A stretch of 64,000 bases of DNA from Mermis nigrescens (taxonomy: Eukaryota > Nematoda > Enoplea > Mermithida > Mermithidae), in assembly GCA_036768485.1 (NCBI GenBank), contig JAVLUZ010000340.1, positions 1,871,470-1,935,469 on the forward strand. Direction: 5' to 3'. Shown here piece after piece: positions 7,027-28,662 of this stretch (positions are counted from its first letter, which is position 1; each line of letters opens with the position of its first letter). Below the pieces are notes generated by a model. That model saw only the letters and a program-made list of their open reading frames with translations, searched no databases and was not told where the DNA came from. The position numbers were made by a program, and so were the translations under genes.

Positions 7027-9330
7027 ATGGCAGGAAAAAAGGTTTTGCGGACACCGCCCGCTAAATTGAAAAAACCTTCTACGCCACCTACGTCATCTCG
7101 CCAATTACCCACCGCGCCTGTTGACTCTAATAGCGCGAGTTATTCTGTGAGTAATGACACAAATACGAAAGACGTAACTAGTAAGGCGAGTAATGATAAA
7201 TTACCCGCGTCACTAAATGCCGCGAGCAATACACAGTCTGAAGATGAACTGTTATTGACTACCGTGCGATCACGCATTAATCAAACTTCGATAACTAGAT
7301 CGGACCCTAACATTGACAATTCATCTAATCATACAATAATTGATAATACGACTACTCTTAATACGGCAAATAATCCTGAAACCAGTTCGGAGCGCGAAAA
7401 TCCCGATTCTGATGTAGAAAGTAATCATAGTCATAGCATAAATGCCGACAAAGAGCGTGCTAATGCTAATGTGACTAATGATCTTATTTTAAAAGCGCTA
7501 CAAGCTATTCATTTGCAATTTTCGGACCTTTCTACGCGCGTTGATCAAGATAAAAAGGAAAATGCGGATGAAATGCGTAAACTGCGTCTGGAGCTAAGCA
7601 CTATGCTTAAACCCCAACCAGTTTTTAATCGCATAGAGAATAATTCATCTGAGCGCGTTAACCACTCAATTGACAGCGCAAATTTTTCTGAATTTAATGC
7701 GCAAAGTGCGAATCGTGTGCAAAGTACGCATTGTGCATCTTCACTGTTGTCCACTGGCAATAGCGCATCAAATTCACGCTCACCTTCGGAAACTGTTCCT
7801 GAAAATATCGCTCAAAATTGTACGAATCGCGCGCCTGAGATATCTAATTTGTCACAGAATCCTTTAAACACGGGTTTGCAACCAGTGCAAAACTCGGGTT
7901 TTTCGGATAACATACCTACGATTTCGCAGCCGTCGGTACCGATTTTGCAGACGTCGCGATCTCGGCCTTCGCTGTCCTTAAATCGTATTGCGCCTTCTTT
8001 CGTACCTAATTCTTTGAATGTGAGCTCACAGCAGCAATTAAATCCTCCACCACTGCAATACTTTCCACCACAAGGAGAAATTCTTCCAAATAATTTCGTA
8101 CCTAATCCCATAAATGTGGAAATACCACCTAATAATCCTATTTTGCATTCTTCTAACATCGAAATGCAACCTGTTGAGATAAACTTATCTGGCATTAACA
8201 ACGAACCTACAAATTTACAAAATGAATCTGCGCCTCTACCTGAATCATCTAGTAGGAGAAGACATGTCAAATTTTCTGATGAAAGTTCATCTAATAGTTA
8301 TGATCGCCCGCGCAGCTGTCGCTCGCGTCGCAAAAGTAGATCGCGCAGACGTCGTCATCGCTATAGTTCAGATTCTTCATCTGAAGGCTCGCATGGTGGA
8401 TTGCGTCTCGCTGATTCCCTGAATCGCGGACCATTTTTGACACAAATGCAAATTGCAATTGCTAACAAAAAATTTTTTGATGGAGATAAAACGGATATAA
8501 AAGCATATTTTGCAGAATTTGAATCGCTTGCCGATACCTATGATATCGACAAAGCTGATCGTTTAAAATTTGCAACTGGATTTCTTGATCCCTATGCCAT
8601 GCGTTTGTACCGTTCGTTACCTGCTGATATACAACAATCTTATTCAAAAATGAAACAAGTGCTAATAACCGAATTTTGTCCAATGGACACCGGTGCGCTC
8701 TTTAACCGTTTTTTGAATCATAAACAGCAGCCTAACGAATCGGTTAAAGCTTATTATCTCTCGCTTCGCAAAGAGTTAATTAAATCTGATCCTTATCTTG
8801 AAGTGGATTTGCATCATTTCAATAATTTAATGCGACATCAATTAAAGGAAGGTTTATTACCACACATTTCGAAAGAGGCATATCATAAAAAGCCTAGAGC
8901 ATCGTTAGCTGAATTTTTGGACAATGCGCTAAGCGCTGAATTTGCTAATAAAGAATTTGAAGATAAAAAGGCAGTAACACCTTATGTATCGGTAACAGCT
9001 GCTCCCGTTGGCAGTGCAGTACCTAAAGATACTCCTCGCGCACCTAACCAAAATAATTCGAATCGTTCGCGTCATAGAACGTTTCATCGCTCGTCGTGTG
9101 CTGAAAAGCCAGAAAGTTCCTCTCGTAAATATTGCACCTTTTGCAAGCGCATAGGGCACATTTATGAGGAATGTTTCATGCGTCAGAGGCAAGAAGCGTC
9201 TAATAATGCTTATCATAATACCCAATCTGATCGAAATAATAATTCTATGGCTCGCAATTGCAGCCAGTTGCGTTCTTTTTTGCGCCAAAATCGTTTGCCA
9301 TCGCGTCCGAATTCGCAAAATAGACATTGA
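7027..9330 (+). CDS. Gag of element A, RS-rich
   Basis: Structural protein expected to form the cytoplasmic particle and bind element RNA. The ATG sits in a good context (aataATGG). Residues 1 to about 400 are a low-complexity Ser/Asn/Pro region. Residues about 410-455 form an arginine-serine segment (RSRRKSRSRRRRHR). A capsid-like retrotransposon Gag domain follows at about 480-640, then a zinc knuckle, CTFCKRIGHIYEEC (C-x2-C-x4-H-x4-C), near residue 704. The frame stops with TGA at 9328, yet the same frame continues open past it into the protease (9379 onward). CGA to TGA, one transition in an Arg/Ser-rich stretch, would explain the stop. Suppression of the TGA is a less likely alternative. 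Confidence 0.9.
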   Translation: MAGKKVLRTPPAKLKKPSTPPTSSRQLPTAPVDSNSASYSVSNDTNTKDVTSKASNDKLPASLNAASNTQSEDELLLTTVRSRINQTSITRSDPNIDNSSNHTIIDNTTTLNTANNPETSSERENPDSDVESNHSHSINADKERANANVTNDLILKALQAIHLQFSDLSTRVDQDKKENADEMRKLRLELSTMLKPQPVFNRIENNSSERVNHSIDSANFSEFNAQSANRVQSTHCASSLLSTGNSASNSRSPSETVPENIAQNCTNRAPEISNLSQNPLNTGLQPVQNSGFSDNIPTISQPSVPILQTSRSRPSLSLNRIAPSFVPNSLNVSSQQQLNPPPLQYFPPQGEILPNNFVPNPINVEIPPNNPILHSSNIEMQPVEINLSGINNEPTNLQNESAPLPESSSRRRHVKFSDESSSNSYDRPRSCRSRRKSRSRRRRHRYSSDSSSEGSHGGLRLADSLNRGPFLTQMQIAIANKKFFDGDKTDIKAYFAEFESLADTYDIDKADRLKFATGFLDPYAMRLYRSLPADIQQSYSKMKQVLITEFCPMDTGALFNRFLNHKQQPNESVKAYYLSLRKELIKSDPYLEVDLHHFNNLMRHQLKEGLLPHISKEAYHKKPRASLAEFLDNALSAEFANKEFEDKKAVTPYVSVTAAPVGSAVPKDTPRAPNQNNSNRSRHRTFHRSSCAEKPESSSRKYCTFCKRIGHIYEECFMRQRQEASNNAYHNTQSDRNNNSMARNCSQLRSFLRQNRLPSRPNSQNRH

Positions 9331-10074
9331 TCTCAATCACGATATCGTAATTCTAGTCAACATCGTTCATCTAACTATGTGAATAATGATAACCGCTTTG
9401 AATCGAAGCAAACACGATCGAATTTTAGGCAAAATCGTAATGATTATTACCAAAATTCGCATGCTAACTATCAAAATTTGCGTTACAATAATCATTATAA
9501 TAATCAACCGCGACAAAATACACCTTTTGTGCAATTCCCAAATGAACAGCGTGGTATATACTATAATTCAAACTACCGCAACGACAACAATTTTAATCGC
9601 CCTTATGTCACATACACTGCGGATAACCAACCCACCATGAATGTGCCCCCACCTCAGCCAACCCTTACATCTCCTCATGATGTAAACACGGTTACTGCGA
9701 AAGGGCCAGAATCTAGCGCGCGTCCTAATCTATTTGCGTTGCAAGAATTTCTCAAAGAGTACGAACGCTTACAACGTCGTCTCACAACTTATGAAAAAAT
9801 CAATCTACCTGCATCTAAGACTTTAGATCCTAATATTCCTATTGTAAGCCATGCTGGGACAAATTTACCCACCATTCTCGTTAAAGTTCATGGCGTTGAC
9901 ATACCTGCTCTTATAGATACAGGTTCACAGGTCACCATGATGACCACGTCTGCATTCCTACGTCTTGGTTTTAATTTACCACCTAAACAAGTCTCACAAG
10001 TCGTACATGGTGTAGGCGAAATCACCGCAGTAGTTCGGTATAAAGTAAACATGACTTTAACTATCGCGGAACAA
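9331..10074 (+). pseudogene. Gag tail and protease, first half (element A)
   Basis: Same frame as gag, downstream of the TGA at 9328-9330. After an Asn/Arg-rich linker and a short predicted helix (EFLKEYERLQRRL) comes the retropepsin core, with active-site ALIDTGSQVTMM at about 9908-9943 (catalytic Asp in DTG). The domain is cut after the codon ending at 10074, where a Helitron-like element enters. The second half, including the LLGYDF block, resumes at 13945 in the same frame. Retropepsins of this type process Gag-Pol. Confidence 0.88.
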
Positions 10075-13000
10075 TCATAGGTAGCGCGTTAGCGCGTACC
10101 TATAATATACTTGGGTACCCCCAACACCTGGGCACTCCCCCTACAGCTATAACGGGACACTTCTGGAAGGTGCGGTTTTTTTTAAAAGAAAGATAATAAA
10201 AAAATTCGCTGCCCGTGTTTTTTTGTTTTTCTTGAAACTCAAAATTGACTGTGTAAAGAAGGTGTAAAGTTTTTGTGTAACGTTATAACATAGGACAAAT
10301 TTTGGGACCTTTTTACTGCGGCATGTGGACAACTGAGTATTGATGACTCGAAGGATTGAACAGAATAGGATAATAGAGGGATGAATTCTACAGATGACAC
10401 TTTTTTTGTTTTTTGAAATTCGCATTATTTATCGAACGGCAGTGTAAAGAGTGCGAAAATCTGGGGGTGAAAAAGCACTTTTTGGTCGAGTTTTCAACCT
10501 TCCTATGTCCGATACTAACTCCGGTTATGAGGTTTTTAAAATGTTTTCTGACAGAAATGTAGAGCGGATCAAGGGCTACATTCTGCATATAAGCAAAGTC
10601 TTCTATGCTCTATGGTGAGTTAGATCCTGGGGTTTAAAGTTTACACTCTAGTGGATGGTGTAAAAAAACGGATTTTAACTAAGATTTCTCTGCCAAATTT
10701 TTCCGCTTATGAGTCAGTGCAAATCGAAGACAGCATTAATAAAGTGCCTCACAGGGGCTAAACATCGCAGCAAACCGCATTTAAAAAAACGCAATATTGA
10801 GTTATTTATGGGGGTGTAAAGTTCGAAATCAGAGGTAAAAAATGGGCTAAAAAACACGTTTTTTCCGAAGTTTGATTGATAAATCATGCCAAATAATTTT
10901 TGCAACAGAATTTTGGCACACAGGAATGTACTACGATTTAAAAGCTACAAATTGTACCAAACCGAATTTCTTTAAACTCAATGGGGAGTTCGGTACGGAA
11001 TTTTAAAGTTTACAGTGTTCTAAATGATGGAAAATACGTTTTTGTTGCGTTTTTTGTTCGCCACTTTCTCCGTCCAGAAGTCGGGATAAGTCTAATAGAA
11101 TAAAAATAAAGTGCTTTATATCGGGTGCATGTCAAAGCAAATTGTCTATACATTAATATTTAGCGAGTGTAAAGTCAAAAATTTGGAGTTTTAAATGCGT
11201 TTCTGTCTTGTTTTTTCTGCCTGCTTCTCCGGTTACGAGTCAGGGACACGTTTATCAAGTCTAGAAATGGACCAGGAATCAAATTTGATATGCCAGTCTG
11301 GCGCATATGTTTACACTCTACGGTGTTGTAAAGTAGTTTACACCAATTGTTAGTTTGCCCATAGAACATTATGTAGACTTAATTTTTTCATAAATATTAA
11401 TCGTAATATCGGAACAATATCAAAATTACGAATCTGACTAAAATCTTCTTTACACTAGGTGTTTACATGAAGTTTACACTACATATATATTTATCTTCGT
11501 TTTTGAGCATTCCTGAAACCTAATTTTTTCTTGGAGCCTAGAAGTTTTCAAAGGATCAAATGTGAGACGTCACGTAGGCGCGTTTGTTTACATCCAACAG
11601 TGATGTAAAGTAGTTTACATTCATTGTTTATATGTCCTCAGACCATTGTAGAGACATAATTTTTTCATGAATGTTGATCATAATATCCGAGTAATTTTTT
11701 ACACTGCATGTTAGCCTTTGTTCTAGAGCATTGCAAAAATCGAAATTTTTTCCTGAGATATAAAAATTTACAGGGAATGAAATATATACGTCAATTGGGC
11801 GCGCTTGCTTACACTCAGCAGTATTGCAAAGTGGTTTAAACCTAATGTTTATTGTCTTTAAAACATTATGGAGACTCATTTTTCCATAAATGTTGAAAGA
11901 AATATCGGAGCAATATCAAAATTACGAATCCGACTAAAATATTCTTTACGCTATGTGTTTGTGTAAAGTTTACGTTACGTGTTAACCCTAATTCGATAGA
12001 CTTGCAGAGACTTTGTAACTGAAGTCAAGAAATTTTCAAGGATTCATATGTGAGACATCAATTAAGTGAGTTTGTTTACCCTCAAAAGTAATCTAAAGTG
12101 ATTTAAAAATTATGTTCAAGTGTCCTTAGATCATTGAAGAGATGTAATTTTGTCTTAAATGGGTTGCATTAAAGTTAAATCTTTCTTAGCCGTGTTTATA
12201 ATATGTTTCACAAAATCTTGCACATGGAGAGCTATCGTTTAATTGATGTAAATTGCCTGCAAAAGTGGTTTAAAATGAACCAGCAATCACACTACTGTGC
12301 ACAGAAGTCGACAAAGATATACAGCTTTATTGTAATCATGTACATTAATAAGCCGTAAACTGTTAGTATTCTCTACACCTAGTAGTTGTGTAAAGTTTGC
12401 ACTATTCATTTGTTGTTAATATGTAGTCTATACTACAAATTTATTTTACTACCAAATCAAAGCGTTAGTGTTCCTTACATTTGATATTTGCGTGAAGTTT
12501 TTGAATTTTTGCCGAAAATCTTTGCCTTCTAATTTACCAACATCCCGCCTTTTCCATTTTCTTGAAGTTTAAAATCTTTTATAATTCTCTCATAATTTAA
12601 TGGTAGGTTTTAACTTTAAGTTTCTCTTGGTTTACAACTCTCGCTTAGCAAGCTCATTTTTCAAAACTTTTTCATAGTGATCAGATTAGTTGCGTTTAGT
12701 TTGGAATTGGTGGACGGTCGTTATTTTATTACTCGGCTTAAATAAACCAAGTGACTATCTTTTGATTATTTTCTTCATCGCAAATTCAAACACCCAATTT
12801 TCAATTTGAAAATTGACCCAATTTTCAATTTGAAAATTGATCCAATTTTCAATTTGAAAATTGAAAATTGGGTGTTTTCAATTTCAAAAGTCACAACACA
12901 TTGTGCTTGTGTATTGATTGAGTGAGGATTTGCAATGTGAATTCGTTGGTTAAATTTTTGTGCTTGATTATAAGTGAACTGCACATTAAGAAGAAATAAC

Positions 13001-13944
13001 TTAATGCAGTTTTAATTTGAAAATGGATGGTGTCAATAAGGTTGTCTTGTTTAAAAAGGATAATGCTGATGTTAAGAACAATATTGTTTTCCGCGTTCTT
13101 GGACTGTTGTCATTATTGTGGCATGTTACTGATTGTGTTTACTGACTGATGTACTGAAATCACGCTAATTAAAAGTAGTGTACTAGCAAAGAAAAATGCT
13201 CCGATGGAACAAAAAAGATGAATATACTTGGAATTGTGGATTATTATGGATGTAAAAGGAGGGGACTAGGAAAAATCTACCTAAAGTCGGAAAATCTGCT
13301 AAAAATCACACTTTCTCTAAGCAACGCAAAAAATCGATGTATATTCTGCGGCCTCTAAAAAAGTGTCTTTTTTAAATAATGTTCGAAGTTTCAGATAAGA
13401 GTGTATAAACGAAATCTATCAAGGTTACTTTTTTAAATTGCTGGCACCTGATTGATAGAAAACTAAGAGGTATTGTATTTAAAGTTGTTTTGTATTATGA
13501 GCATTATAGCAAGCAAAGCAGGAGCCGATTGATTAGTGCACACAATCGTTTCGGGCATGCTAGTGTATCTACATTAAGTCTGTTTCAAGTCAACTTACGT
13601 GTTTCCTACTGTTTTTAACCAACCATGTCTTCAATTGTCTTCGATGTTTGCTATTTCATTCAATTGGCTTGGAAGACTGTTAGTTTACTTAATATCATTT
13701 CCCATAGCTACTGCATAGCTAACGTGCTGCTGTTTCAATCATTGTTATGGTTGAATATTTATTTTAATCTGTTGGCCGCAGAATATACGTCGATTTTTTG
13801 CGTTGCTTAGAGAAAGTGTGATTTTTAGCAGATTTTCCGACTTTAGGTAGATTTTTCCTAGTCCCCTCCTTTTACATCCATAATAATCCACAATTCCAAG
13901 TATATTCATCTTTTTTGTTCCATCGGAGCATTTTTCTTTGCTAG
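10075..13944 (+). mobile_element. Helitron-like non-autonomous element, copy 1
   Basis: Opens with TC (TCATAGGTAGCGCG), closes with CTAG, and lies between a host A (10074) and a host T (13945) with no target duplication. These are classic Helitron end and target rules. The reading frame of the host protease continues exactly across the two flanks, which fixes both boundaries. A palindrome (ATAGGTA...TACCTAT) lies just inside the left end. The interior is AT-rich with many scattered gtgtaaag words. No Rep or helicase frame is present, so it is non-autonomous. Copy 2 (37941-40122) shares both ends. Alternative: a foldback DNA transposon. Confidence 0.75.
12786..12866. repeat. 24-bp palindromic tandem repeat
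   Basis: Three copies of cccaattttcaatttgaaaattga (second and third slightly varied), followed by a partial copy. Each unit contains the self-complementary core tcaatttgaaaattga, so the array can form several small hairpins. It lies inside Helitron-like copy 1. Confidence 0.9.
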
Positions 13945-13945
13945 T
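13182..13945. repeat. long foldback at the Helitron 3' end, copy 1
   Basis: The left arm (13182 to about 13352) starts ACTAGCAAAGAAAAATGC. The right arm (about 13788-13945) is its near-perfect reverse complement, ending in CTTTGCTAGT. Arms are about 160 bases around a loop of about 435. The right arm end coincides with the 3' end of the whole insertion. It could be a MITE captured at the terminus or a structure needed for termination. Confidence 0.85.
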
Positions 13946-14472
13946 CCATTTCTACCTCAGTATCTATAATTGATCACTTGCCGGAAGACATGCTCTTAGG
14001 ATATGATTTTTGCGAATCCGCACTCATGTGGGTTAATCCTATTGAGCGCTGTGCTTTTATAAACGGCATAAAGATTAATTTGCTCTCATCTCATGAAAAA
14101 TTGCAATTTCGTGCGAAACCCAACACAACTACCTCTGGTGTTGTGTGTGTGCATGTTTCGTTACCTGAGCCTGTTATAATACAACCTAGACACGAAGTAA
14201 TCACACCTGGTTATATAAGTCACGGTTCTTGCAATTTTGATTTCGCATTATTCGAACCAGATCCCGATTTTATGGAAAAAACCTCACTTTTTGTTGCTCC
14301 GTCTATAGTCGATGCTTCACAACCTTTAATACCTATTCGCGTTTGTAACATCTCTAAAGCGCCAATTCGCATCGACTCTGGCGACATAATAGGTTCTTTA
14401 ACCTTTGATGCCGAAGTTGTGTCGCATGTTTCATCTTTTGATGATAGGACACCAGAACTTTTGCATCAATAA
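13945..14472 (+). pseudogene. protease, second half (element A)
   Basis: Continues the frame interrupted at 10074. The block LPEDMLLGYDFCES is the second conserved motif of retropepsin-like proteases (usual form hhLGhDhh). After it comes about 130 residues of pre-RT linker, rich in beta-type hydrophobic segments, like the matching region of element B. The frame ends at 14470-14472. The pre-RT sequence continues in another frame from 14475, so a frameshift lies here. Confidence 0.85.
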
Positions 14473-15139: not shown

Positions 15140-15562
15140 AAATGTCTTTATTGCTCTTAAAAAGGCAAACTTACGTGTAAAGCCGGATAAATGCCATCTT
15201 GCGCATGCAGAGGTAAAATTTCTTGGCCACAGCATAAGCGCAATGGGCATCGCTCCTGATATGTCCAAAGTCGCAGATTTAATGTCGTTTCCTGTACCAA
15301 AAACCGTGAAATCCTTACAGAAATTCCTTGGCTTAGTCCAATGGTTTAAAAAATTCGTTAAAGATCTCGCTAAAATCGCTAAACCGCTATTCCATCTTCT
15401 TCGTAAAGATGTCGAATTTTGCTGGAAGGCCAAACACCAAACCGCCTTTGAGCTTCTGAAGAAAGCATTTACGTCCCCACCTATTTTGCAACTACCAAAA
15501 TTCGATGATGAGCACCAATTTATTTTAACAACTGACGCAAGTAATTATGCGTTAGGTGCTAT
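15140..15562 (+). pseudogene. RT thumb, connection and start of RNase H (element A)
   Basis: Frame shared with 26506 onward. It has FLGHSIS, the FLGL...FKKFVKDL connection block, and the start of RNase H (LTTDASNYALGA). It is cut by element B after TTAGGTGCTAT. The CTAT there is the left copy of B's target duplication, and the interrupted Ile codon is completed at 26510. Confidence 0.92.
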
Positions 15563-16507
15563 TGTAAAGAATATTGGGATTATCAATCAAGGTTTTAATT
15601 ATAATTATCCCATTTATTTCAATACTCAGCTATTAGAGTTATCTTATTGCTAATACATAGATATATTATGTGGACGGTATTCAATTTGCGTTTCATCTCT
15701 ATAGCACTCATCACATTTAACATTCTTTATTCACTTTATGCATTAAGCGTGTGCACACAACAGTCAACTTTTACTTTAGTTTTTATGCCGAGCGCAAAAG
15801 TTATTCCATACGATTACATTTCCAGATTATGCGCTTTGGTCAACTCGTACGCAAAATAATTCTTATCTCACTCAATGGAAAAAAATGTAGCCCACTCACA
15901 CTCGCATAGAAAGTATGTTTTTCTCAACGTAACTTCTCGGAAATATTCTTATCTACTTTCGTGTCTTGTTTTTATGACGCTAATTCTGTGCTCGCAAAAT
16001 GACTCGTTGCTGCTAGAAAAACTGCTCATGGGATTTCAAAGCTATTTTTTTATTCTTTTCGTCTTACTGTGTGTCCTACTGTAGCTCTCTTACTTTTATA
16101 AGTTGCGTGCAAAAATAAGCTCATTAAGCGCCGCCTTTATTTAATGTAATTAATGCACAACTTCTCTTCGCTGATCTCTCTCTGTTCCGCCTACCGCTCG
16201 GGTAATAAAACTTTCGCGCAGCTTCGAAAATCAGTCTCTCTCTGCTCCGGGTTCGTGGTTCATTTGACTCTCTCTTCGTTTTGGGAATCTGGCCCTGCTC
16301 TCCTATTCTTCGTATTATGTTTGTTAAGTACGTTATTTACTTAGGTATCCCATTAATAAAACTTACTACTCTCTAGTGTTGTGCCTGAATTTAATTACGA
16401 GAGACATTCATGCAGTTTAGATTTAGAATGAATTAATGCTATTGAATATTGCGGGTGCCTTTCCTCAACTTATAAGTTTTGGGTGCGCAGTAACCCCCAG
16501 TTTTACA
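15563..16507 (+). repeat. 5' LTR of element B
   Basis: Starts TGTAAAGAATATTGGG and ends CAGTTTTACA, giving TGTAA...TTACA ends. It is almost identical to 25563-26505. AATAAA motifs lie near 16204 and 16352. Open frames inside it are short, differ between the two copies, and are not annotated as genes. Confidence 0.96.
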
Positions 16508-16509
16508 AG

Positions 16510-16527
16510 TGGCGATCGCGCCAGCTC
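16510..16527 (+). promoter_or_regulatory. primer binding site of element B
   Basis: TGGCGATCGCGCCAGC begins two bases after the LTR. The TGGCG start resembles primer sites of other Ty3/gypsy elements that use Ser or Arg tRNAs. The exact tRNA is not determined here. Confidence 0.6.
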
Positions 16528-16837
16528 TCCTATTATTTATCGTCAACTCTCAAATTTTTATCACCGTCTCTTTTAATATTTATCGACAAATCGTTTTGTA
16601 GAAAAAAAAGATTTGTAATTCATACTCAGCTTACAAATAACTCATTATTATTATTTCTCAGAGACGGCAGGCGGCATTTCGAACGATTTAATATATTAGA
16701 TAATTTTAAAAATATTTTTGCACATCGTTTTGGATCGTAGAATTTTTCGCCAATCTGTGCGATAGTGTTGCTAACGACGGCACTTAGTCAGCAATTCGAA
16801 GCGATAGTCAATCAAGCAAAGAAAACTTCGCTGATTG
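16528..16837 (+). other. leader of element B
   Basis: About 310 bases between primer site and ORF1 start. No conserved frame was found. Confidence 0.5.
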
Positions 16838-19800
16838 ATGGTAAATTCATATCACACTCGTAGTAGAGCAGCTTCAATTACTGGCCCATCATTTGTAGAC
16901 CCTCCGAAATTAAAAATGGATCAGCAAGCTATAGCTCTTCTTCAACAAACCGTAACTAGAGTTCAAGAATTATATGAAAATCGACCTATTTCTCTCGTTG
17001 CTTCTCCACCACTCTTACCGTTTTCAGGCGAAGAAGAAACAAATTGGTCTGAATATGAGAAAAAATTTAGTAATCTTGCCATTTTGGCTGGTGCATCTGA
17101 GATAGAAAGGAAAATTGCTTTACTTTCAACTTATTTAAAAGGAGCAGCTCAAGCATTTTTTTTTGATTTAACTCAAAGAAATCCTCCTAATACTTGGCAA
17201 GAAATTTCTAATGCTTTTAAAGAACGTTTTCCTGATAATTTGCATATTGATATTAAACGTGATCAACTCCTATCCCGGTACCAACTCCCCTCGGAAACTG
17301 TGCAAAAATATGCTGATGATATACGTAAATTAGCTCGTATCGCTCAACCAGGATGGACTGGGCATGAGGAAAACGATTTTATAAAAAGTCACTTTATCTC
17401 AAAACTTTTACCTAATCTCAGACTCTGGGTTCGTAATGCTTCGCCAAAAACATTTGAAGAAGCAGTTTCAGAAGCATTTAAACAAGAAATTAATCAAAAT
17501 TATGATGCCAATTCATTTATTTTCCCTCAAAAAATTCCGCAAAATGTATCTTCTTCATTAACTCAAAATTTTCAGCGAATGTCGTTGTCTGACCCTTCCC
17601 CTCAGCCCCAACGAATTAATAAAAATGATGCACCTCAATCATCCATTAAATTTGCGTATAATCAACCTCATTCTCGCACAAATAATTTTAATCGTAGTAA
17701 CTTGTGCTATTATTGTGGTAAACCTGGTCATTACATAGCTCAATGTAGATTAAGATTTCGTGAAAATCGCGATATGCAAAATAATAATAATATTTTTCGT
17801 CAGGCACCCGAAACCTCTAAAAACTCTTTTGTCGAAAATTCTAGAAATTTTCAGAGTTCTGCTAGACAATCTCACTACCCAAACGAATTTTCTACAACTT
17901 TTGGTCAATCGAGAAATAGCGGAAGGCCATTCCAAAAATATTCTTATGGGGGTAGGGCGCCTAAACCCCAACATAGGAATCCATCTGCTTATCAGGACGC
18001 TCGCCTGAATGCAAATGTGGTAGGAAGAGGGTTAATGAACCCACAAGCGGAAGATGACGGGCAGGAACTTGAGAATGAGAATATTCTATCCCCATGTCTT
18101 GACTCTCACTCTATCAATCCATATGTAATAACGGATGATCCTCATTTTCAGAATTTTTATTCTAATGTAGTTGTTCCTTCCATGAGGACAAACCTTATTT
18201 TGCGCGCCCCAGACGTAGTCAATTTAACTGATATCGGAATAAGTATGTGTGAGGTAGACAACCAAGGTGGTGCAATTTTACAAGCGCGCAGTTATACCCC
18301 GTTTTCGAAAATTAACTTCATGGCATGGGATGCGGTTTGTCTTACCTACTTGCTAGTCTGTGGGTTGATAAGGAGCAGAAGACTCGGGCACCACATATAT
18401 AATTTAGTCAGAGTAATTGGATTTTGGATATCCATTTTCTCTCTTTTTTTGAATGCAGCTGAGTTGGATAATAAATTTTATTTATGTAATCAAGCTCAAG
18501 CAGGACACCCAATTTCTGTCCCGAGGTCTATTACATGTGTTTTACCGAATGATTTAAACTCTCAATCGCAGTCTGCAAAAATAATGCTCTACACTCCTAG
18601 AACAAAAGCTATTTCTGTACCGAGTATAAAATGTTATCTCCTTATTAGAACTGTCTGCACTAATTACGGGTTTTTCTTTTCAAAAGGCATAACTGCAGAT
18701 CTAACCACGAAACAAGCTCCAGATCTTTCTGATTGCGTTAAAGCACAAAATGGAGAAAAATACAATAATCAAACTCTCAAGCAAGTCTCAAAAAATCTCC
18801 GAATGACGACAAATGTCTTGTCAATTTCTTATGAATATTGTTGTTACGATTATTGTGAATCTGTGACAAATCTCATTTTAGAAGATGGGTTAGCGTATTC
18901 TTTTGATGGAAAAACAATAATAACTGATTTAGGAGATACTGGCGGATGTGCTGCTACGTTAGGCAGTTGCTCTCATCAAGCTTATCACATTTTATGGACC
19001 CCTCTTCCTTTTCAAAAATTTTGTCCTTTTACTCGTCTAGGATCATATAACGCTAAGCTTATAAGGAAATTTATAACTATAGAAGCCATACAAGGAGCTT
19101 TCACGTTAGAAGGGCGTACTGATGTATGTAATCTCAATCACAGTTACTTAACTCTTCAAGGTCCTATCATTCAGTTTGTTGAGGCTGAGCCTCAGATTAG
19201 TATTATAAATCAGACTCATTTTAATAAACTCGCTGACGATATAGATGATCCTATAAATGCTAAACTCCAGTTTCTCTTTAATAAAATTGAACAGTTTGAA
19301 ATACAACATTTCCGAGATATTTGGCTAGAATTATGTAGAAACGCTGATCGATACCTTCAACTCATTTGGCAACTCTTACATCTTGACCCTACCTTAGGTG
19401 CTCGTGCATTATTGAAACGAAGTAATATTTCGGCTTCTTTCGCAGGTCAAGCTTTACTAATTTGGGAATGTGAACCCGTTTTTCCTGAAATTGTTTTTTG
19501 GAACTATACTGTTAATGAAACTTGTTACATACTCTTACCGATTAAAATAAACTCAACTCTGTGGTTTAACGTACCTGGTACATTAGATATAGTCCCTGAT
19601 TCTCCACAGCAAGACTGTCATAAAGTAATGTCTGGAATTTATAAGCAAGGTGTAAATTGGAGGACTGATAAGGGAATCACACATGTGAGTCATATTCCAC
19701 TTCAGGTCGCCTGGCATGGTAAATGGCAACCCTATACTTTTAATGCACCTCCTTTAAACCCTCATTTGCAAATATTTCCTGCGGCTCTAGGTTTAATGAG

Positions 19801-21151
19801 ACACTATATTGCTCGCACCCAAAATTTGGATAATCAAATGCAAAGATTTATAAATTATTCTTCTTCTCTCGCTTTAGATCCATCAGTAGTCTCACACTTT
19901 ATAAAAGGAACCGGTACCGCTCTTGGAGAAATAATAAAAAGTTATGAAAGTTCTTTAGAACATTTTCTTGTTCAAGGAGTTAATACTTTCACTTCAAGTT
20001 TGAACTCACTCTTGAAAGGTCCGATTCAACTCATTATAAATATGATAGTTATAACTTTAATAGTCGCTGTGATCGGATACTTTATTTATATATATTTTTC
20101 GAGAAAATTTTTTCTATTCTGTTGTAAGAAAATGACATCAACCCATATAACTCAACCATCTAACCTTGTTTTGAGTGAAAATCCGCATGATGAGCATATT
20201 GAATTGCAATCAATAGTGAGTCCTACTTCAATGGAACAACCTCAAGCATCCAGTGTTCTTCAATTTATTACTACAGCTTTGCAACCACTTATCACCGCAC
20301 CCACTCCAGAAAAGTCAAGTATTTCAAATAATATTACAAATGGACGAAAATTGTATCCACTTATCGCTACTAAAATAATAAATCCAAAAAATAAAATAAA
20401 TTATCTTGATATCTTAGCTATGGTAGATACTGGTTCTGAAGTCACTTTAGTCACAATAGATAGTGTGAATAAACTCGGACTGAAGCTCGAACCATCTTAT
20501 ATATTAACTATTACTCAAGCATGTGGCACAAAATCGCCTGTCTTAGGTGCTGCTTGGATAAATTTAATGCTAGAAAATGAAATAGGTTATCCTTCTGAAT
20601 TTGTTAGGACACAAGTGATTGAAAAATCTCCGGTCGATCTCATCTTAGGTAATGACTTTTTAATGCGATATAATACATTAAACATTAATTGGAGAAAAGG
20701 CACAATCAAATTAGGACCATATAATCTCACGCTGACAGAACCGTTTGAAATTGATGAATCTGCTCGAGGCATAGTTAGGCTTTCTGAATTAATTGTAGTA
20801 CCTCCTCGCTCAATGCATACTACTTTTATTTTTGTTGGTGAACCCTATAATCACTCTCTTAACCTACTTTTTGAGCCTAAGCATGATTTTTATGTGAAAC
20901 ATAATGTTCAAGTTAGTTGTTGTCTTGGATCTCCGAGTGATTCGAAAATTCCTATTAATATTTTAAATCTAAATCATAAAACTCCAGTCACACTTTATTG
21001 TGGAACTAAATTAGGTAGAGTAAGTGTTTATTGTCCTCCTGTTATTAAACCTCTTACATCTAGCTTCGCTAATTTTAAATTGACAGCCATACCAGGAGAT
21101 CCTCAACTTGCAGAAAACGAAAAAAATTCAACACTTCCAACTCATGACTAA
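16838..21151 (+). CDS. ORF1: Gag, zinc knuckle, Env-like glycoprotein segment and protease in one frame (element B)
   Basis: One open frame of 1,437 codons. Residues about 60-216 match the retrotransposon Gag (capsid) domain. A CCHC knuckle, CYYCGKPGHYIAQC, lies near residue 290. After a Gln/Asn-rich linker, a hydrophobic signal-like stretch (about 522-543) opens a Cys-rich region of about 520 residues with several N-glycosylation sequons. It ends in an amphipathic Gly-containing stretch and a strong membrane anchor (about 1067-1090). Then comes a cytosolic-type tail, a retropepsin with DTGS (Asp near 1197) and its ILGNDFL block. Envelope genes in known Ty3/gypsy elements lie after pol, so this order is unusual. 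The glycoprotein region is called Env-like on topology alone. I cannot assign its fusion class, though the membrane-proximal part vaguely recalls class III fusogens. Confidence 0.85.
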   Translation: MVNSYHTRSRAASITGPSFVDPPKLKMDQQAIALLQQTVTRVQELYENRPISLVASPPLLPFSGEEETNWSEYEKKFSNLAILAGASEIERKIALLSTYLKGAAQAFFFDLTQRNPPNTWQEISNAFKERFPDNLHIDIKRDQLLSRYQLPSETVQKYADDIRKLARIAQPGWTGHEENDFIKSHFISKLLPNLRLWVRNASPKTFEEAVSEAFKQEINQNYDANSFIFPQKIPQNVSSSLTQNFQRMSLSDPSPQPQRINKNDAPQSSIKFAYNQPHSRTNNFNRSNLCYYCGKPGHYIAQCRLRFRENRDMQNNNNIFRQAPETSKNSFVENSRNFQSSARQSHYPNEFSTTFGQSRNSGRPFQKYSYGGRAPKPQHRNPSAYQDARLNANVVGRGLMNPQAEDDGQELENENILSPCLDSHSINPYVITDDPHFQNFYSNVVVPSMRTNLILRAPDVVNLTDIGISMCEVDNQGGAILQARSYTPFSKINFMAWDAVCLTYLLVCGLIRSRRLGHHIYNLVRVIGFWISIFSLFLNAAELDNKFYLCNQAQAGHPISVPRSITCVLPNDLNSQSQSAKIMLYTPRTKAISVPSIKCYLLIRTVCTNYGFFFSKGITADLTTKQAPDLSDCVKAQNGEKYNNQTLKQVSKNLRMTTNVLSISYEYCCYDYCESVTNLILEDGLAYSFDGKTIITDLGDTGGCAATLGSCSHQAYHILWTPLPFQKFCPFTRLGSYNAKLIRKFITIEAIQGAFTLEGRTDVCNLNHSYLTLQGPIIQFVEAEPQISIINQTHFNKLADDIDDPINAKLQFLFNKIEQFEIQHFRDIWLELCRNADRYLQLIWQLLHLDPTLGARALLKRSNISASFAGQALLIWECEPVFPEIVFWNYTVNETCYILLPIKINSTLWFNVPGTLDIVPDSPQQDCHKVMSGIYKQGVNWRTDKGITHVSHIPLQVAWHGKWQPYTFNAPPLNPHLQIFPAALGLMRHYIARTQNLDNQMQRFINYSSSLALDPSVVSHFIKGTGTALGEIIKSYESSLEHFLVQGVNTFTSSLNSLLKGPIQLIINMIVITLIVAVIGYFIYIYFSRKFFLFCCKKMTSTHITQPSNLVLSENPHDEHIELQSIVSPTSMEQPQASSVLQFITTALQPLITAPTPEKSSISNNITNGRKLYPLIATKIINPKNKINYLDILAMVDTGSEVTLVTIDSVNKLGLKLEPSYILTITQACGTKSPVLGAAWINLMLENEIGYPSEFVRTQVIEKSPVDLILGNDFLMRYNTLNINWRKGTIKLGPYNLTLTEPFEIDESARGIVRLSELIVVPPRSMHTTFIFVGEPYNHSLNLLFEPKHDFYVKHNVQVSCCLGSPSDSKIPINILNLNHKTPVTLYCGTKLGRVSVYCPPVIKPLTSSFANFKLTAIPGDPQLAENEKNSTLPTHD

Positions 21152-23399
21152 ATTTTCCTCACTTTTCGTTAAAAATGATTATGAAACTGAGTTAGGGCGC
21201 ACTTCGCTTATAGAACATAAAATTAATACTGGAAATTCTGATCCCATTAAGCAGCAAGCTTATCGTGTTCCTTATAAACAGCGAGAAGTTGTAGACAGAG
21301 AAATTAAAAAGATGCTTCAGCAAGACGTTATTCAACCCTCTAAGAGCCCGTGGGCCAGTCCAATTGTTCTGGTCCCAAAAAAGACTGGTGGGTTTCGTTT
21401 TTGCGTTGACTACAGAAAATTAAATGCTGTGACAAAAAAGGATAGTTATCCCCTTCCCCGAATAGCCGATATTCTCGAAACTCTCAATCAGTGTAACTTT
21501 TTCTCAACTCTTGATCAGGCATGGGGTTATTGGCAAATACCAATGGAACCCAGTGACATGGAGAAAACTGCTTTCATAACTTATAATGGACTTTATGAAT
21601 TCAAGGTTCTACCTTTTGGACTTTGTAATGCCCCAGCTACTTTTCAAAGACTCATGGATATACTCCTTTCTGGATTACAGTGGGATATTTGCCTAGTATA
21701 TCTTGATGATATTCTTATTTTCAGTAAAACATTTGACGAACATTTAAGGCGATTAGAAATTATCTTTTCTAAGCTAAAAGACGCGGGTTTAAAGTTACGT
21801 TTTGAAAAATGCAAATTTGCTCAGAGATCTATTACTTATTTAGGCTATGTTATCTCAGACAAAGGAATTTCTCCGGATTCTCAAAAACTCAAAGCTATTG
21901 CAGATTACCCAGTTCCTGTCAGTGTTACTAAACTAAAAAGCTTTCTAGGTTTAGCAGGCTATTATCGACGATTTATTGAGAATTTTTCAACTACAGCCGC
22001 ACCTCTTTATGATCTCTTAAAAAAAGTTAGCACATTTTCTTGGTCAGATAAATGTCAAGCTGCTTTTAATAAGCTTAAGGAACATCTTCAAACAGCCCCT
22101 GTACTCACCTTCCCTGATTTCTCAAAACCTTTTATCGTACAAACTGATGCATCAGGCTATGGATTAGGAGCTATTCTAGCTCAAGAACAGAATGGGCAGG
22201 ACCATCCAATTGCATATGCTAGTCGCACATTAAACACAGCTGAGCGAAATTATTCTGTTTTTGAGCAAGAAGCCTTGGCTGTTGTTTGGGCGGTTAAATA
22301 CTTCCACTCATTTATTTATCAACAAAAGATAACAATAGTCACTGATCATGCTGCACTCCAATATATTCTCAAGAAACCAAATCCTTCTCCTAGAATAGCA
22401 CGATGGGGACTATCTCTACAAGAATACGATTTTGAAATTAAACATAGGTCAGGCAAAAAGCACACTAATGTTGATGCATTATCTAGACAACCTTGTTCCT
22501 CAGTGGCTACTCTCAAAACCTCAGTTGACCCAATTTTTGAAAATATAGAAAATCTACAGAAACAAGATCCATTTTGTAGTTCTCTCATTGACTATATCTT
22601 AAAAGGTGAATTACCTGATGATGATTCAACTGCAAGAAAATTAGTATTAATGAGCTCAAAATTTGATATTATCGATAATCTTCTTTACTACATCCATACT
22701 CCATCAAAAAGTAATGTTGATCAATTGCTAGTTATCCCTCAACACTGTCGTCAAGAACTCATATGTAATTTTCATGACAGCCTATTTGCTGGACATCTAG
22801 GATTCAAACGGACTTATACTAAACTAAAAGAACGTTTTTATTGGTCTCGTATGTACAGTGAAACAAAAATTCATTGTGAAACCTGTTCTTTGTGTCTCAA
22901 GAGGAAATCTCCTACAAAACTTACAAAAGCACCCCTGATTAGCATTCCAATTCAAGCACCCTTTGAGCGAATTGCCACTGACATACTAGGTCCATTACCT
23001 ATTACTGAGAATGGGAATAGGTACATAATTATCTTTACCGAATATCTTACAAAATATACAATGGCACAAGCTATTCCTAATATACAAGCTCAGACAGTTG
23101 CACAATGTCTCCTTTCAGAGGTTATACTTCGACATGGTGCACCTGCTCAACTTCTCTCGGATCAAGGTTCAAGTTATATGTCTGAAGTGTTCAAAGAACT
23201 CTGCAATTTATGTAACATTCACAAAGTTAAAACAAGTGCCTACCATCCTCAGACCGATGGCTTAGTTGAACGCTTTAATAAGACTCTAGCAAATATTCTC
23301 TCAATGTATGTTAATAAAATGCACTCAGATTGGGATAATTTCCTGCCTTTTGCAATTTTTGCGTACAATACAGCCAGGCAAGAATCAACTCAATTTTAA
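21144..23399 (+). CDS. ORF2: reverse transcriptase, RNase H, integrase core (element B)
   Basis: The frame is open from 21108, overlapping ORF1 in the +1 frame. Its first ATG (21144) overlaps the ORF1 stop as ATGACTAA, so coupled reinitiation or +1 frameshifting could express it. RT motifs: SPWASPIVLVPKK, FCVDYRKLNAVT, FSTLDQAWGYWQIPM, LPFGLCNAP and YLDD near 21699-21710. RNase H: QTDASGYGLGAI, EQEALAVVWAVKYF, VTDHAAL. Integrase: HHCC zinc module (CETCSLC), then catalytic Asp codons near 22980 and 23160 and Glu near 23268, spaced D-35-E. A TAA at 23397 stops the frame inside the integrase C-terminal part, although the same frame continues open afterwards. Confidence 0.94.
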   Translation: MTKFSSLFVKNDYETELGRTSLIEHKINTGNSDPIKQQAYRVPYKQREVVDREIKKMLQQDVIQPSKSPWASPIVLVPKKTGGFRFCVDYRKLNAVTKKDSYPLPRIADILETLNQCNFFSTLDQAWGYWQIPMEPSDMEKTAFITYNGLYEFKVLPFGLCNAPATFQRLMDILLSGLQWDICLVYLDDILIFSKTFDEHLRRLEIIFSKLKDAGLKLRFEKCKFAQRSITYLGYVISDKGISPDSQKLKAIADYPVPVSVTKLKSFLGLAGYYRRFIENFSTTAAPLYDLLKKVSTFSWSDKCQAAFNKLKEHLQTAPVLTFPDFSKPFIVQTDASGYGLGAILAQEQNGQDHPIAYASRTLNTAERNYSVFEQEALAVVWAVKYFHSFIYQQKITIVTDHAALQYILKKPNPSPRIARWGLSLQEYDFEIKHRSGKKHTNVDALSRQPCSSVATLKTSVDPIFENIENLQKQDPFCSSLIDYILKGELPDDDSTARKLVLMSSKFDIIDNLLYYIHTPSKSNVDQLLVIPQHCRQELICNFHDSLFAGHLGFKRTYTKLKERFYWSRMYSETKIHCETCSLCLKRKSPTKLTKAPLISIPIQAPFERIATDILGPLPITENGNRYIIIFTEYLTKYTMAQAIPNIQAQTVAQCLLSEVILRHGAPAQLLSDQGSSYMSEVFKELCNLCNIHKVKTSAYHPQTDGLVERFNKTLANILSMYVNKMHSDWDNFLPFAIFAYNTARQESTQF

Positions 23400-23936
23400 C
23401 CTTTTTATTTAATGTATGGACGTCAAGCTAAATTGCCTATTGAAACTGTTGTTCAAAAACACTCAGCAAAGGCAATTTATCGCATAGATCTCTCTGATTA
23501 TATTACAGAAATGTCTCGACTTCTTAATGAAGCTTGGGAAATAGCTCGAATTAACATACAAAAATCTCAGCTAACTCAGAAACATTATTATGATAAAAAT
23601 GTTCATGAAAATATTTTTATAGTAGGCAACAAAGTGTTTAAATACTCTCCAGCTATGAAACAAGGTCAATCTCCCAAATTTCTTCATCCATGGTTGGGAC
23701 CTTATGAGATCATTCAGATAAGATATCCTAATGCTCTTATACGCTCTTGTAAACCTCAAGAATTTAAGGATGAATGGGTACATGTAAATCGGCTTAAAAA
23801 GATGAAAACAAATCAGGACTTGGAAACGATTTCTGTTAAAGAAGCGGTGGACATTTCTAAATCAAAATCGTCACAAAAAGCTGACACCTCTTTAAAACAG
23901 CATAACTATAATCTTCGATCAAGGCATCTTCATTAA
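23400..23936 (+). pseudogene. integrase C-terminal part after the in-frame stop (element B)
   Basis: Same frame as ORF2, starting straight after the TAA at 23397-23399. It carries the LMYGRQAKLP block, a helical segment and the GPYEII...WVHVNRLKKM barrel typical of Ty3/gypsy integrase ends. No other break is seen, so a single substitution to a stop separates it from the core. The tail (about 60 residues) is Lys/Ser-rich. Confidence 0.9.
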
Positions 23937-23958
23937 TTCAAACTCTTCCGCACTTTAG

Positions 23959-25383
23959 ATGTCAAGTAGTAGTGGCTCACAACATAGTGCGGCAGAAGAA
24001 TTGTCTGATGAGGGATCCACAAACTGGAAGCGTAACAATCACTCTCTCTCACCTGATGTCTCCAAAAAGACCTGTGAAGAAACTCATACACTATTAGATA
24101 AGACGCTGATTCCTGAAGCTCATGAAGTAGTTAACTCAAAGGCTCAAACTCAGGTGGATCCAAAAGCTTTGAATTGGATCAAAAGGTTTCATCGCCGTCC
24201 AGCTGAAGCACGAATGCAAGTCTGTCCCGATGACATAACTCTTGACGAAGCTTATTTTTTAATCTCGTCTGATCCTCATCATCCCACGGTCAATTCGTTC
24301 TACTGCTCGACATATATCAAAGCTAACCCAGCCGCTAAGCCCTCACCAAATCGAGCCATAGGTATCAATGGTCCATTTTGCGACTTTTTGTACGTGTTTT
24401 GCTCTGATGGCATCATTTGTATTTTCTCTTTGTGGGAGCTCAATGGTATCCCTGACCAGTTGAGGAAATTTTTGATGTCTCCAAATCGTATGCGCTTGTT
24501 TTTTGATGCCGACTCTCAGATCAATGCACTCGTCAATACCGATCAGCAACTTCTTGGTCTGGCTGCTAGCATTGATTTGAAAGAAGTATGTGAAAAGCTG
24601 GCAGTTTCCAAGGTAGCTGAATTTCCACCAAATCCACACTCTATAGCTCAGCTCTCATTGTTCTTTTTCAACATAAAGTTGGTGCAAACGGACGCCGCCG
24701 ATCCTCAGTTGCACTATCCTACATCAGCTTATGCAGTGTTGACCTTCGACTTGTATGTGAAATTACAGTCAATGTACCCTCAAATCCTTCCGATAGAGTT
24801 GCCAACTGCGTCAACAAAACAGTATCTCAGTGCAGCGATCCAAACTTCTAATTTGAGTGTTTCGCCATTTCACTCAAATTTGGACGTCATCCCTAGTTTG
24901 ATGAGCATCGATATCGTACCACCAGCAGTCACCATGTGGAGAACTGAAGACAAGCCAGCGCCTTTGCAGTACGTGACCGAAAATTTGCGCCCACCCTCTG
25001 TTCGTTTTCCAGCTATCGATATCCGAACAAAGGATATTGAACCTCGATTTGCCCAATTATTGCAACAGGTCAAAGCTAATCTGCTGCAAGAATTTCGTTA
25101 CGGCCAACCTGTTGACGACCAGAAGTATTCGCAATTTGTGAGAAAGTGGTCAAATGAAATCAATAAGCAATTCATCACAGCTCCTGAAGAAATCGTGCGG
25201 TTACATGAGCGTTTGAGTGACTACATTTTGTGCCGCATTGTCAATCGGCAAGCTCAAGCTCGAATCCCAGCTCAGTCGCCCGGCCAAGCTTCACCCTCTC
25301 AACCAAGCGCAAACGTGCAAGGCAGACATAACCAGCAGTTCCCACCGTTGTCAATGCCAAGGAATCCATGGAACAGACATTGA
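23959..25383 (+). CDS. ORF3: degenerate DEDDy exonuclease-like protein (element B)
   Basis: 474 residues, ATG 22 bases after the pol stop. Residues about 130-270 follow the layout of WRN/Rrp6-type 3'-5' exonucleases: a first strand (GINGPF), a second strand with SDGIICIFSL, a helix DLKEVCEKLAV, and a final helix LHYPTSAYAVLTFDLYV. The positions expected to be Asp-x-Glu read Asn-x-Pro and the Tyr-x3-Asp reads Tyr-x3-Ala, so catalysis is unlikely. A helical domain (about 385-425) resembles one in ORF3 of element A, and the tail is Pro/Gln-rich. The frame is fully open in a young element. Related enzymatic ORF3s are known in bdelloid rotifer LTR elements. The role, perhaps nucleic-acid binding, is inference. 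Confidence 0.7.
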   Translation: MSSSSGSQHSAAEELSDEGSTNWKRNNHSLSPDVSKKTCEETHTLLDKTLIPEAHEVVNSKAQTQVDPKALNWIKRFHRRPAEARMQVCPDDITLDEAYFLISSDPHHPTVNSFYCSTYIKANPAAKPSPNRAIGINGPFCDFLYVFCSDGIICIFSLWELNGIPDQLRKFLMSPNRMRLFFDADSQINALVNTDQQLLGLAASIDLKEVCEKLAVSKVAEFPPNPHSIAQLSLFFFNIKLVQTDAADPQLHYPTSAYAVLTFDLYVKLQSMYPQILPIELPTASTKQYLSAAIQTSNLSVSPFHSNLDVIPSLMSIDIVPPAVTMWRTEDKPAPLQYVTENLRPPSVRFPAIDIRTKDIEPRFAQLLQQVKANLLQEFRYGQPVDDQKYSQFVRKWSNEINKQFITAPEEIVRLHERLSDYILCRIVNRQAQARIPAQSPGQASPSQPSANVQGRHNQQFPPLSMPRNPWNRH

Positions 25384-25562
25384 GTAACGTAAAATCCATG
25401 AAAAGGTTCAAATAATAAAAGACTGATTATACCCATGATACTTTTTTCGTTTATACATGTGTTAATATGGGATACCCCCGGTTAGGTACAGGATGGGTCC
25501 CCCTTTTGAATCATACCCTATACTCTTCCACTCTCAAAAAAAGGGAAGAACAGGAGGAGAAA
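25384..25562 (+). promoter_or_regulatory. 3' untranslated region and polypurine tract of element B
   Basis: Short spacer after ORF3 with AATAAA near 25413. It ends in a purine-rich run from 25536 to 25562 (aaaaaaagggaagaa, one c, aggaggagaaa) that abuts the LTR start TGTAAAG. Confidence 0.8.
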
Positions 25563-26505
25563 TGTAAAGAATATTGGGATTATCAATCAAGGTTTTAATT
25601 ATAATTATCCCATTTATTTCAATACTCAGCTATTAGAGTTATCTTATTGCTAATACATAGATATATTATGTGGACGGTATTCAATTTGCGTTTCATCTCT
25701 ATTGCACTCATCACATTTAACATTCTTTATTCACTTTATGCATTAAGCGTGTGCACACAACAGTCAACTTTTACTTTAGTTTTTATGCCGAGCACAAAAG
25801 TTATTCCATACGATTACATTCTCAGATTATGCGCTTTGGTCAACTCGTACGCAAAATAATTCTTATCTCACTCAACGGAAAAAAATGTAGCCCACTCACA
25901 CTCGCATAGAAAGTATGTTTTTCTCAACGTAACTTCTCGGAAATATTCTTATCTACTTTCGTGTCTTGTTTTTATGACGCTAATTCTGTGCTCGCAAAAT
26001 GACTCGTTGCTGCTAGAAAAACTGCTCATGGGATTTCAAAGCTATTTTTTATTCTCTTCGTCTTACTGTGTGTCCTACTGTAGCTCTCTTACTTTTATAA
26101 GTTGCGTGCAAAATAAGCTCATTAAGCGCCGCCTTTATTTAATGTAATTAATGCACAACTTCTCTTCGCTGATCTCTCTCTGTTCCGCCTACCGCTCGGG
26201 TAATAAAACTTTCGCGCAGCTTCGAAAATCAGTCTCTCTCTGCTCCGGGTTCGTGGTTCATTTGACTCTCTCTTCGTTTTGGGAATCTGGCCCTGCTCTC
26301 CTATTCTTCGTATTATGTTTGTTAAGTACGTTATTTACTTAGGTATCCCATTAATAAAACTTACTACTCTCTAGTGTTGTGCCTGAATTTAATTACGAGA
26401 GACATTCATGCAGTTTAGATTTAGAATGAATTAATGCTATTGAATATTGCGGGTGCCTTTCCTCAACTTATAAGTTTTGGGTGCGCAGTAACCCCCAGTT
26501 TTACA
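25563..26505 (+). repeat. 3' LTR of element B
   Basis: Near-identical copy of 15563-16507. Single-base indels account for the 2-base length difference. It is followed by CTAT, the right target duplication. Confidence 0.96.
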
Positions 26506-27089
26506 CTATTTTGACGCAAAAACATTTACCATCCAAAAATCGTTTTATTCTTAGCTATGCTAGTCGCGTGCTAAATTCTGCCAAATGTAACTATGCTACT
26601 TCGGAAAAAGAAGCGTTAGCGGTAGTGTGAGCCATCAAGCATTATTGACATTATCTTTACGGTAAAAAATTTATTGTCGAAACTGATCATCAAGCATTAA
26701 CTTGGCTAGTAAACGTTAAAGACCCATCGAGTCGTTTACGTCATTGGGGTCTCAAATTACAAGAATATGAATATGACATCGTTTATGTTCCTGGTGCATA
26801 TAACTGCGCAGCTGATCTTCTTTCACAACATCCTAAATATGATCATGCAGAACGCAAATATAAATTAGAGTGCAAAAATGTTGTTAACATCGCAAATTTA
26901 GAATCGGAAGATTCTGAGTCAGATGATGAATCGGTCCCAGCTGACCAATCGCGCGATAATGCGCCTACTGCACCAATTAATCATCCAAATGCGCAAAATA
27001 ATAATCCTACTGCGCAAATCGATCCTACCAATACGAAACCACCTACATTTCGTGAACGCCTGTTACTTACCGATGCTGAAAAAGCCAAA
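26506..27089 (+). pseudogene. RNase H remainder and integrase N-terminal linker (element A)
   Basis: Resumes the RNase H frame cut at 15562. Blocks LSYASRVLN, EKEALAVV, IVETDHQAL and SSRLRHWGLKLQEY are present, followed by ADLLSQHP. Two TGA codons (26628-26630 and 26646-26648) interrupt it: the first where a Trp is normally found, the second where an Arg or Phe-like position is usual. Both fit single transitions. An acidic, Asn-rich linker leads into integrase. Confidence 0.9.
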
Positions 27090-28109: not shown

Positions 28110-28662
28110 GCAGCAAAAAGCTCAATATGACAAGTCCGTAACTCAAACAAATTTTTCTCTCTCGGATATAGTTTACCTTAATAATACCTCAGTAATTCAA
28201 CCTGAAATCGGTAAACTATCACCCAAACGTGTTGGACCATATAGAATTATCGACTTACCTACGCCTGAAACTGCGAAAATCGCGTATGTCTATAATCCTC
28301 TAATCACTCATCTCGTTCACCGGAATAGACTTCTGCCTGAGCCCAAACTACCCTACTCAGATTTAATTGTGGAAAAGCACGCGTATGTCCCTGGCGATTT
28401 TGTTTTGGTAAAATTACCACATCGCCCTCTCGCCCCGGCAGTAGTCATAAGTTTTGAGGATTTACCGGGCAGGGAGCAAAAAGCTAAGGACTGCGCGCCT
28501 ATACGTTTATTAAATGGCTCTAAAACAGCACATGCCGTACCATTAGCTAATGTTTTCCCTTTTGCAGACCCATGGCTGCTGAAGGTACCCCAAGCAAGGA
28601 GGCATTGCTGGAGGCAGCTGGTCGCCAATTCAAATTTGAGGGGCGTGATCCCGCGTCCCTAG
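28080..28662 (+). pseudogene. integrase C-terminal barrel plus PWWP-like domain (element A)
   Basis: Open in the frame next to the integrase core. The first part is the usual integrase tail (LAQARKQQKAQYDK, GPYRIIDLP, LVHRNRLLPEP). It is followed by about 60 residues, GDFVLVKLPHRPLAPAVVIS ... VPLANVFPFAD, whose order of strands and the PLAP tetrad recall PWWP domains (GDhVWAK...PWWPAhV...). PWWP modules bind methylated histone tails plus DNA, so a role in choosing insertion sites is plausible. The similarity is judged by eye only. The last 91 bases overlap the start of ORF3 in another frame. Confidence 0.6.

Follow-up and report, generated by a model that had tools for sequence, protein, structure and literature searches.

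An envelope domain between Gag and a likely protease in a single reading frame of a Ty3-type retroelement from the nematode Mermis nigrescens

How might a retroelement make and deliver an envelope glycoprotein (Env) that is encoded between its capsid and its protease? The question is raised by a stretch of 64,000 nucleotides from Mermis nigrescens (GenBank assembly GCA_036768485.1, contig JAVLUZ010000340.1, positions 1,871,470 to 1,935,469 of the forward strand), hereafter the window, which carries at positions 15563 to 26505 a Ty3-type long terminal repeat (LTR) retroelement with both ends. In textbook retroviruses and in errantiviruses, the envelope gene comes last and is expressed from a separate spliced RNA, and Env is optional for Gag and Pol. 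For the element described here, we consider it reasonably probable, judging from the arrangement of domains, that Gag, Env and a likely protease (Pro) are made as one polyprotein that would be threaded twice through the membrane, with Env freed by signal peptidase and by the element's own protease.

The first open reading frame (ORF1) of the element encodes, in this order, a Ty3-type capsid, a CCHC knuckle, hydrophobic segments, a cysteine-rich ectodomain, a membrane anchor and a DTG protease. The individual features are as follows, with ORF1 residue numbers starting at TTG 16835:

16838-21151, plus strand: ORF1, Gag-Env-protease in a single frame of 1,437 codons, from the ATG at 16838 to the stop at 21151
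17105-17488, plus strand: Ty3-type capsid domain (PF03732, 33.8 bits; cut-off 24.1)
17705-17746, plus strand: CCHC knuckle CYYCGKPGHYIAQC, residues 291-304 (PF00098, 21.7 bits; cut-off 20.8)
18311-18460, plus strand: two hydrophobic segments (hydropathy; residues 493-512 and 521-542) with RSRR in between
18473-20002, plus strand: Env ectodomain of 510 residues with 16 cysteines (cysteine alignment; PF24664 over 18824-19663)
19256-19495, plus strand: glycoprotein B (gB)-like core of Env (PF00606, under its cut-off; four-sequence profile against the PDB)
20006-20104, plus strand: transmembrane anchor, residues ~1058-1090, then a positively charged tail (hydropathy, lysine and arginine counts)
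20393-20668, plus strand: retropepsin-like protease (Pfam matches under cut-off), with DTG at 20426-20434 (residue 1198)

In the capsid, the Retrotrans_gag match spans residues 96-171, and PF19259 reached 24.3 bits, under its cut-off of 29.1. The third domain is likely an aspartic protease, as judged from its DTG motif, which lies inside two matches that are both below cut-off, namely, PF13975 (gag-asp_proteas; 24 bits versus 28.2) and PF13650 (18.4 versus 24.3). The open linkers between the domains exceed chance expectation: calculated from base composition, the chance of meeting no stop is 4e-6 across the 190-codon Gag-Env linker and 2e-3 across the 91-codon Env-Pro linker, and the two alternative frames of the latter contain 7 and 8 stops. 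A preliminary description of this DNA had proposed Gag, Env and protease in one frame of 1,437 codons, and this was borne out, in that the frame is open and its domains were matched by Pfam, hydropathy and motif.

To relatives of the Env part we gained access through two protein searches, which covered proteins within set length limits and returned predicted proteins, namely, P0004 (1 kept of 6628 candidates) and P0005 and P0006 (2 kept of 5046). By its profile family, the middle part of ORF1 is an envelope. Residues 664-943 score 53.2 bits with PF24664 (Monjiviricetes fusion glycoprotein; Pfam-A; cut-off 27), in a match that covers profile positions 172-442 of 653 and not the whole length. 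The same cut-off was passed by all three relatives (53.2, 54.9, and 34.7 bits), that is, by four of four sequences with the window. A profile of the four Env sequences (A3) matched 38 distinct PDB sequences at E values up to 10, 37 of which are herpesvirus gB, all aligned over the same ~80 residues (best E value 0.0021), whereas the remaining match is a glutamate receptor (E value 1.1). Since the gB scores are weak and the gB entries in the PDB are redundant, these matches indicate, but do not prove, a class III fold. The herpesvirus gB family PF00606 itself stayed below its curated cut-off of 43, with 15 bits for ORF1 of the window and at best 31.8 bits (P0005). Fourteen of the 16 cysteines of the ectodomain are invariant across the four aligned proteins. 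P0005 has alanine at the remaining two positions, 705 and 712, a joint loss of the kind expected of a disulfide pair. The aligned Env piece (18392-20164) contains 8 sequons. A baculovirus F-type Env was not found, as no F family matched ORF1 or ORF3, the last ORF of the element, at E values up to 1 in Pfam-A. That the middle part is instead a captured host membrane protein is exceedingly improbable; nothing was found in favor of this idea, and it was rejected on the PF24664 match and the 37 of 38 gB matches. The preliminary description had called the middle segment Env-like, a view that a match to a non-envelope family would have overturned; the profile search placed it, above cut-off, in a viral fusion glycoprotein family.

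The gene order recurs in the relatives. P0004 (2499 amino acids) has Gag, Env, protease, reverse transcriptase (RT), RNase H and integrase colinear in one frame, with a CCHC knuckle that reads CYYCNKPGHLQNVC, and is identical to the window at 41% in Gag, 43% in Env, 32% in Pro and 61% in Pol. In P0005 (948 residues), Env and the DTG protease behind it share a single frame, and the Env parts of P0004 and P0005 are 36-43% identical to that of the window. Env and Pro are thus joined in all three sequences that extend past the anchor (window, P0004 and P0005). When 12 stretches of ORF1, here numbered from ATG 16838, were compared with P0004, the highest identity was that of the gB-like core (73.3%; residues 805-890), and the capsid core (residues 75-225) was 69.5% identical. 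The protease stretch was 36.8% identical, and the Gag-Env and Env-Pro linkers reached 26.7% and 28.9%, both remaining open; that strongly diverged linkers have stayed free of stops suggests that both are translated. These data bear on the idea that a single copy acquired its middle part as a private insertion or through decay. It could appeal to another, distantly related Ty3-like element in the window (19% identity in Gag), in which Gag adjoins Pro, but P0004 and P0005 retain the Env-Pro fusion and the gB-like core is conserved as well as the capsid core. We accordingly regard a private insertion or decay product as very improbable and rejected it; the preliminary description had named Gag joined directly to protease in other copies as the outcome that would count against its own reading, and what was found is Env fused to protease in P0004 and P0005, and to Gag as well in P0004. 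The neighboring Ty3-like element at 7027-10080 has a Gag ORF of 767 amino acids that ends in a stop; 48 nucleotides on and without a change of frame lies an ORF for a DTG protease, and there is no Env match. Its Gag-then-protease order is an ordinary one in the same genome, and we count it in favor of the polyprotein proposal. No relative was confirmed in IMG/VR, scanned with Env, A3 and pol, or in GTDB contigs, scanned with A3, and a phage collection gave no match.

How such a chain could be arranged in the membrane can be read from its hydrophobic segments. The segment at ~521-542 would provide an internal signal peptide while Gag stays in the cytosol, the 510 residues of the ectodomain would take up the fold of a class III fusogen in the lumen, and the anchor at ~1058-1090 would bring the chain back to the cytosol, where the protease could cut itself and Gag free. 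The start of Env would be released by signal peptidase and its end released from Pro by the protease of the element. Each Pro-Pol would therefore start out tied to an Env-bearing membrane, which may bring the capsid and the enzymes to the same budding site as the fusogen. Alphaviruses and flaviviruses position capsid and envelope through an internal signal. Hydrophobic segments also stand before the ectodomain in P0004, P0005 and P0006. With segment bounds placed by eye, we counted lysine and arginine residues in 20-residue flanks and found 3, 6, and 3 before the signal segment in the window, P0004 and P0005, respectively, 1, 1, and 0 after it, and 3, 4, and 5 after the anchor. In these three sequences the flanking charges fit a predicted cytosolic location of Gag and protease. 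The two-pass topology of the preliminary description, with Gag and protease on the same side, was in this way supported by the window, P0004 and P0005, whereas the signal segment of P0006 (1 lysine or arginine before it and 3 after it) does not favor the proposed orientation.

Several further points weigh, like P0006, against a single polyprotein of this kind. The window has two hydrophobic segments ahead of the ectodomain instead of one. P0006 stops inside the ectodomain and has no anchor, and so says nothing on Pro, and P0005 lacks a Gag match ahead of Env, because of which the Gag-Env fusion rests on two sequences (window and P0004). In the present copy, pol (ORF2) is in a different frame from ORF1. 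The Env of the window, used as a single query, gave no match to the PDB by sequence, and an AlphaFold model of the Env piece from the four-row alignment, with a predicted local distance difference test (pLDDT) score of 34, was unusable. To our knowledge, a 1:1 ratio of Gag to Env is also unlike known retroviruses. Finally, there are candidate splice sites, whose scores, from a matrix built by hand, are no more than suggestive. A donor (ATG|GTAAAT) at 16840 directly follows the start codon in phase 0 and ranks 2nd of the 51 GT sites in 16508-18000; the top acceptor of the Gag-Env linker, at 18152, is also in phase 0, so that Env would remain in frame, and an in-frame ATG follows at 18182. These sites are what would be expected if, in an errantivirus-like manner, Env had a subgenomic mRNA to itself that arose by splicing or trans-splicing into the Gag-Env linker, with the long frame serving mainly for Gag or Gag-Pro. 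There is precedent for this, as errantivirus Env is made from a spliced transcript, within gag in one subclade (PMC12992720), and Cer1 of Caenorhabditis elegans uses both cis- and SL1 trans-splicing (PMC3315495). However, sites of such quality are common on the plus strand of the window (~0.5 acceptors and ~1.6 donors per kb), and a spliced Env would continue into Pro unless stopped, the Env-Pro frame being open in three of three sequences. We therefore rate splicing of a separate Env mRNA as the main rival, albeit an unlikely one.

The stoichiometry problem would be settled by a different event, an intron that excises Env and joins Gag directly to Pro, leaving Env as a minor product. A donor of 8.0 bits is present at 17951, in the linker past the CCHC knuckle, but the top acceptor between the anchor and Pro (20085-20450) reaches 5.9 of a possible 15.9 bits. 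The preliminary description had reserved the case that splicing removes the middle part; with no good acceptor ahead of Pro in the DNA, such an intron is improbable.

The polyprotein that we favor is encoded by an element with the following further features:

15563-16507, plus strand: 5' LTR (TGTAAAG...TTTTACA), within pol of another Ty3-like element
16510-16527, plus strand: putative primer binding site, 2 nucleotides past the 5' LTR, starting with TGG (read from the sequence)
21108-23399, plus strand: ORF2, RT, RNase H, and integrase (H2C2 and core) of Ty3 type (Pfam)
23412-23936, plus strand: remainder of the integrase in the ORF2 frame, past the stop (42% identical to P0004 2332-2496)
23959-25383, plus strand: ORF3, 474 amino acids, at the usual env place, without family match
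25536-25562, plus strand: polypurine-rich tract, directly abutting the 3' LTR
25563-26505, plus strand: 3' LTR (comparison of the LTR pair)

The LTRs, the polypurine tract and a short target site duplication (CTAT at 15559-15562 and 26506-26509) are all as in Metaviridae (Ty3/gypsy), and so is the order RT-RNase H-integrase with Ty3-type domains; among solved structures, ORF2 is closest to the Ty3-G Gag-Pol (E value 3e-123). No tRNA gene was found anywhere in the 64-kb window. The LTR pair is 99.15% identical (945 aligned nucleotides with 6 mismatches and 2 gap openings). The element is young by this measure, yet the copy is not wholly intact, because pol in ORF2 changes frame and has an in-frame stop (23397-23399) that interrupts the integrase. 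Of the earlier view that this is an intact young element whose gene order is no decay artefact, the young LTRs and the open ORF1 were confirmed and the intactness of pol was not. ORF1 and ORF2 overlap at 21081-21151 in different frames, whereas P0004 reads through in one frame; the frame change may be a programmed frameshift, or this copy may be defective here. ORF3 had no homologue at an E value of 0.01 and no match in Pfam, PHROGs, NCBIfam or the PDB, showed no clear similarity to the ORF of the neighboring element, and was modeled alone by AlphaFold with a pLDDT of 33.6. Its start is serine-rich, and one guess is that it may have a regulatory function similar to that of CERV in Cer1.

The element into which this copy inserted is an older Ty3-like element, the pol of which breaks off at the insertion and resumes beyond the 3' LTR. 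Directly ahead of the pol of the older element is an inverted repeat (13174-13953) with arms of 180 nucleotides that are 98% complementary. Past its pol, ORFs at 28572-31035 contain the motifs GYDSEF (DxE) and HYLAMD (YxxxD), which to our eye recall DEDDy 3'-5' exonucleases; neither ORF had a convincing Pfam match and the longer one had no PDB match. The window also contains a satellite at 2-1183 (21-bp unit, ~56 copies) and a tandem array at 38173-39435 (472-bp unit, 2.7 copies).

A single polyprotein would have consequences for the upkeep of the envelope. Because Env is encoded ahead of the protease in the frame, and in P0004 ahead of the polymerase too, a simple stop in Env would cost Pro-Pol, and this cost would account for the envelope being kept. 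From the same position one can test directly whether persistence of these elements depends on infection and not on transposition alone. If the proposal is true, there is a second way of coupling a capsid to a captured fusogen. It is also possible, with the balance slightly against it, that a deep Ty3-type lineage as a whole has dropped the gag-pol-env plan and threads through the membrane a single polyprotein that comprises its capsid, a class III fusogen, the protease and the polymerase. Signal peptidase would then be part of the maturation machinery and each Pro-Pol molecule would be joined to an Env from synthesis on, a strategy like that of alphaviruses and flaviviruses in an element that uses reverse transcription.

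With the structural polyproteins of alphaviruses and flaviviruses, the arrangement shares the succession of capsid, internal signal, glycoprotein and return to the cytosol, whereas the proteins are unrelated and those viruses do not use reverse transcription. Errantiviruses are defined by an env after pol; here, the Env domain precedes the protease, and ORF3, which follows pol, is without Pfam match. Errantiviral env is moreover spliced (PMC12992720), whereas the present Env lies between the CCHC knuckle and the protease in one frame. In searches of one open-access library we found no print record of an env at this place, a weak negative, with the Chary and Hayashi 2025 survey outside its scope. 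Class III envelopes have already been published for gypsy elements: a 2026 study that used 289 representative metazoan elements from that 2025 survey credits gypsy elements with type III fusion glycoproteins (PMC13172572), and the Metaviridae concerned have, as here, a Ty3-type pol. A 2023 survey, in the part available, found no clear case in which Gypsy or Copia had acquired such glycoproteins (PMC10084718). Cer1 is likewise a Ty3/gypsy element without a stop between gag and pol, but its spliced product CERV is an RNA export factor, and the accessible portion of that report does not mention an Env of Cer1 (PMC10309623). Of the described cases in the texts consulted, Anakin and Atlas virus come nearest. 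Anakin, a BEL/Pao element of mosquitoes, is likewise an LTR element with a Chuviridae-like glycoprotein, and three other BEL/Pao envelopes sit after the polyprotein (PMC7642597); Anakin has a BEL/Pao pol, whereas the pol described here has its nearest solved relative in Ty3 and is not of BEL/Pao type. Atlas virus (Belpaoviridae) of hookworm similarly carries Env in one stop-free polyprotein, of 2828 residues, but in the order Gag-Pol-Env, with a class II, phlebovirus-like Env in last place and a BEL-type pol (PMC9094657).

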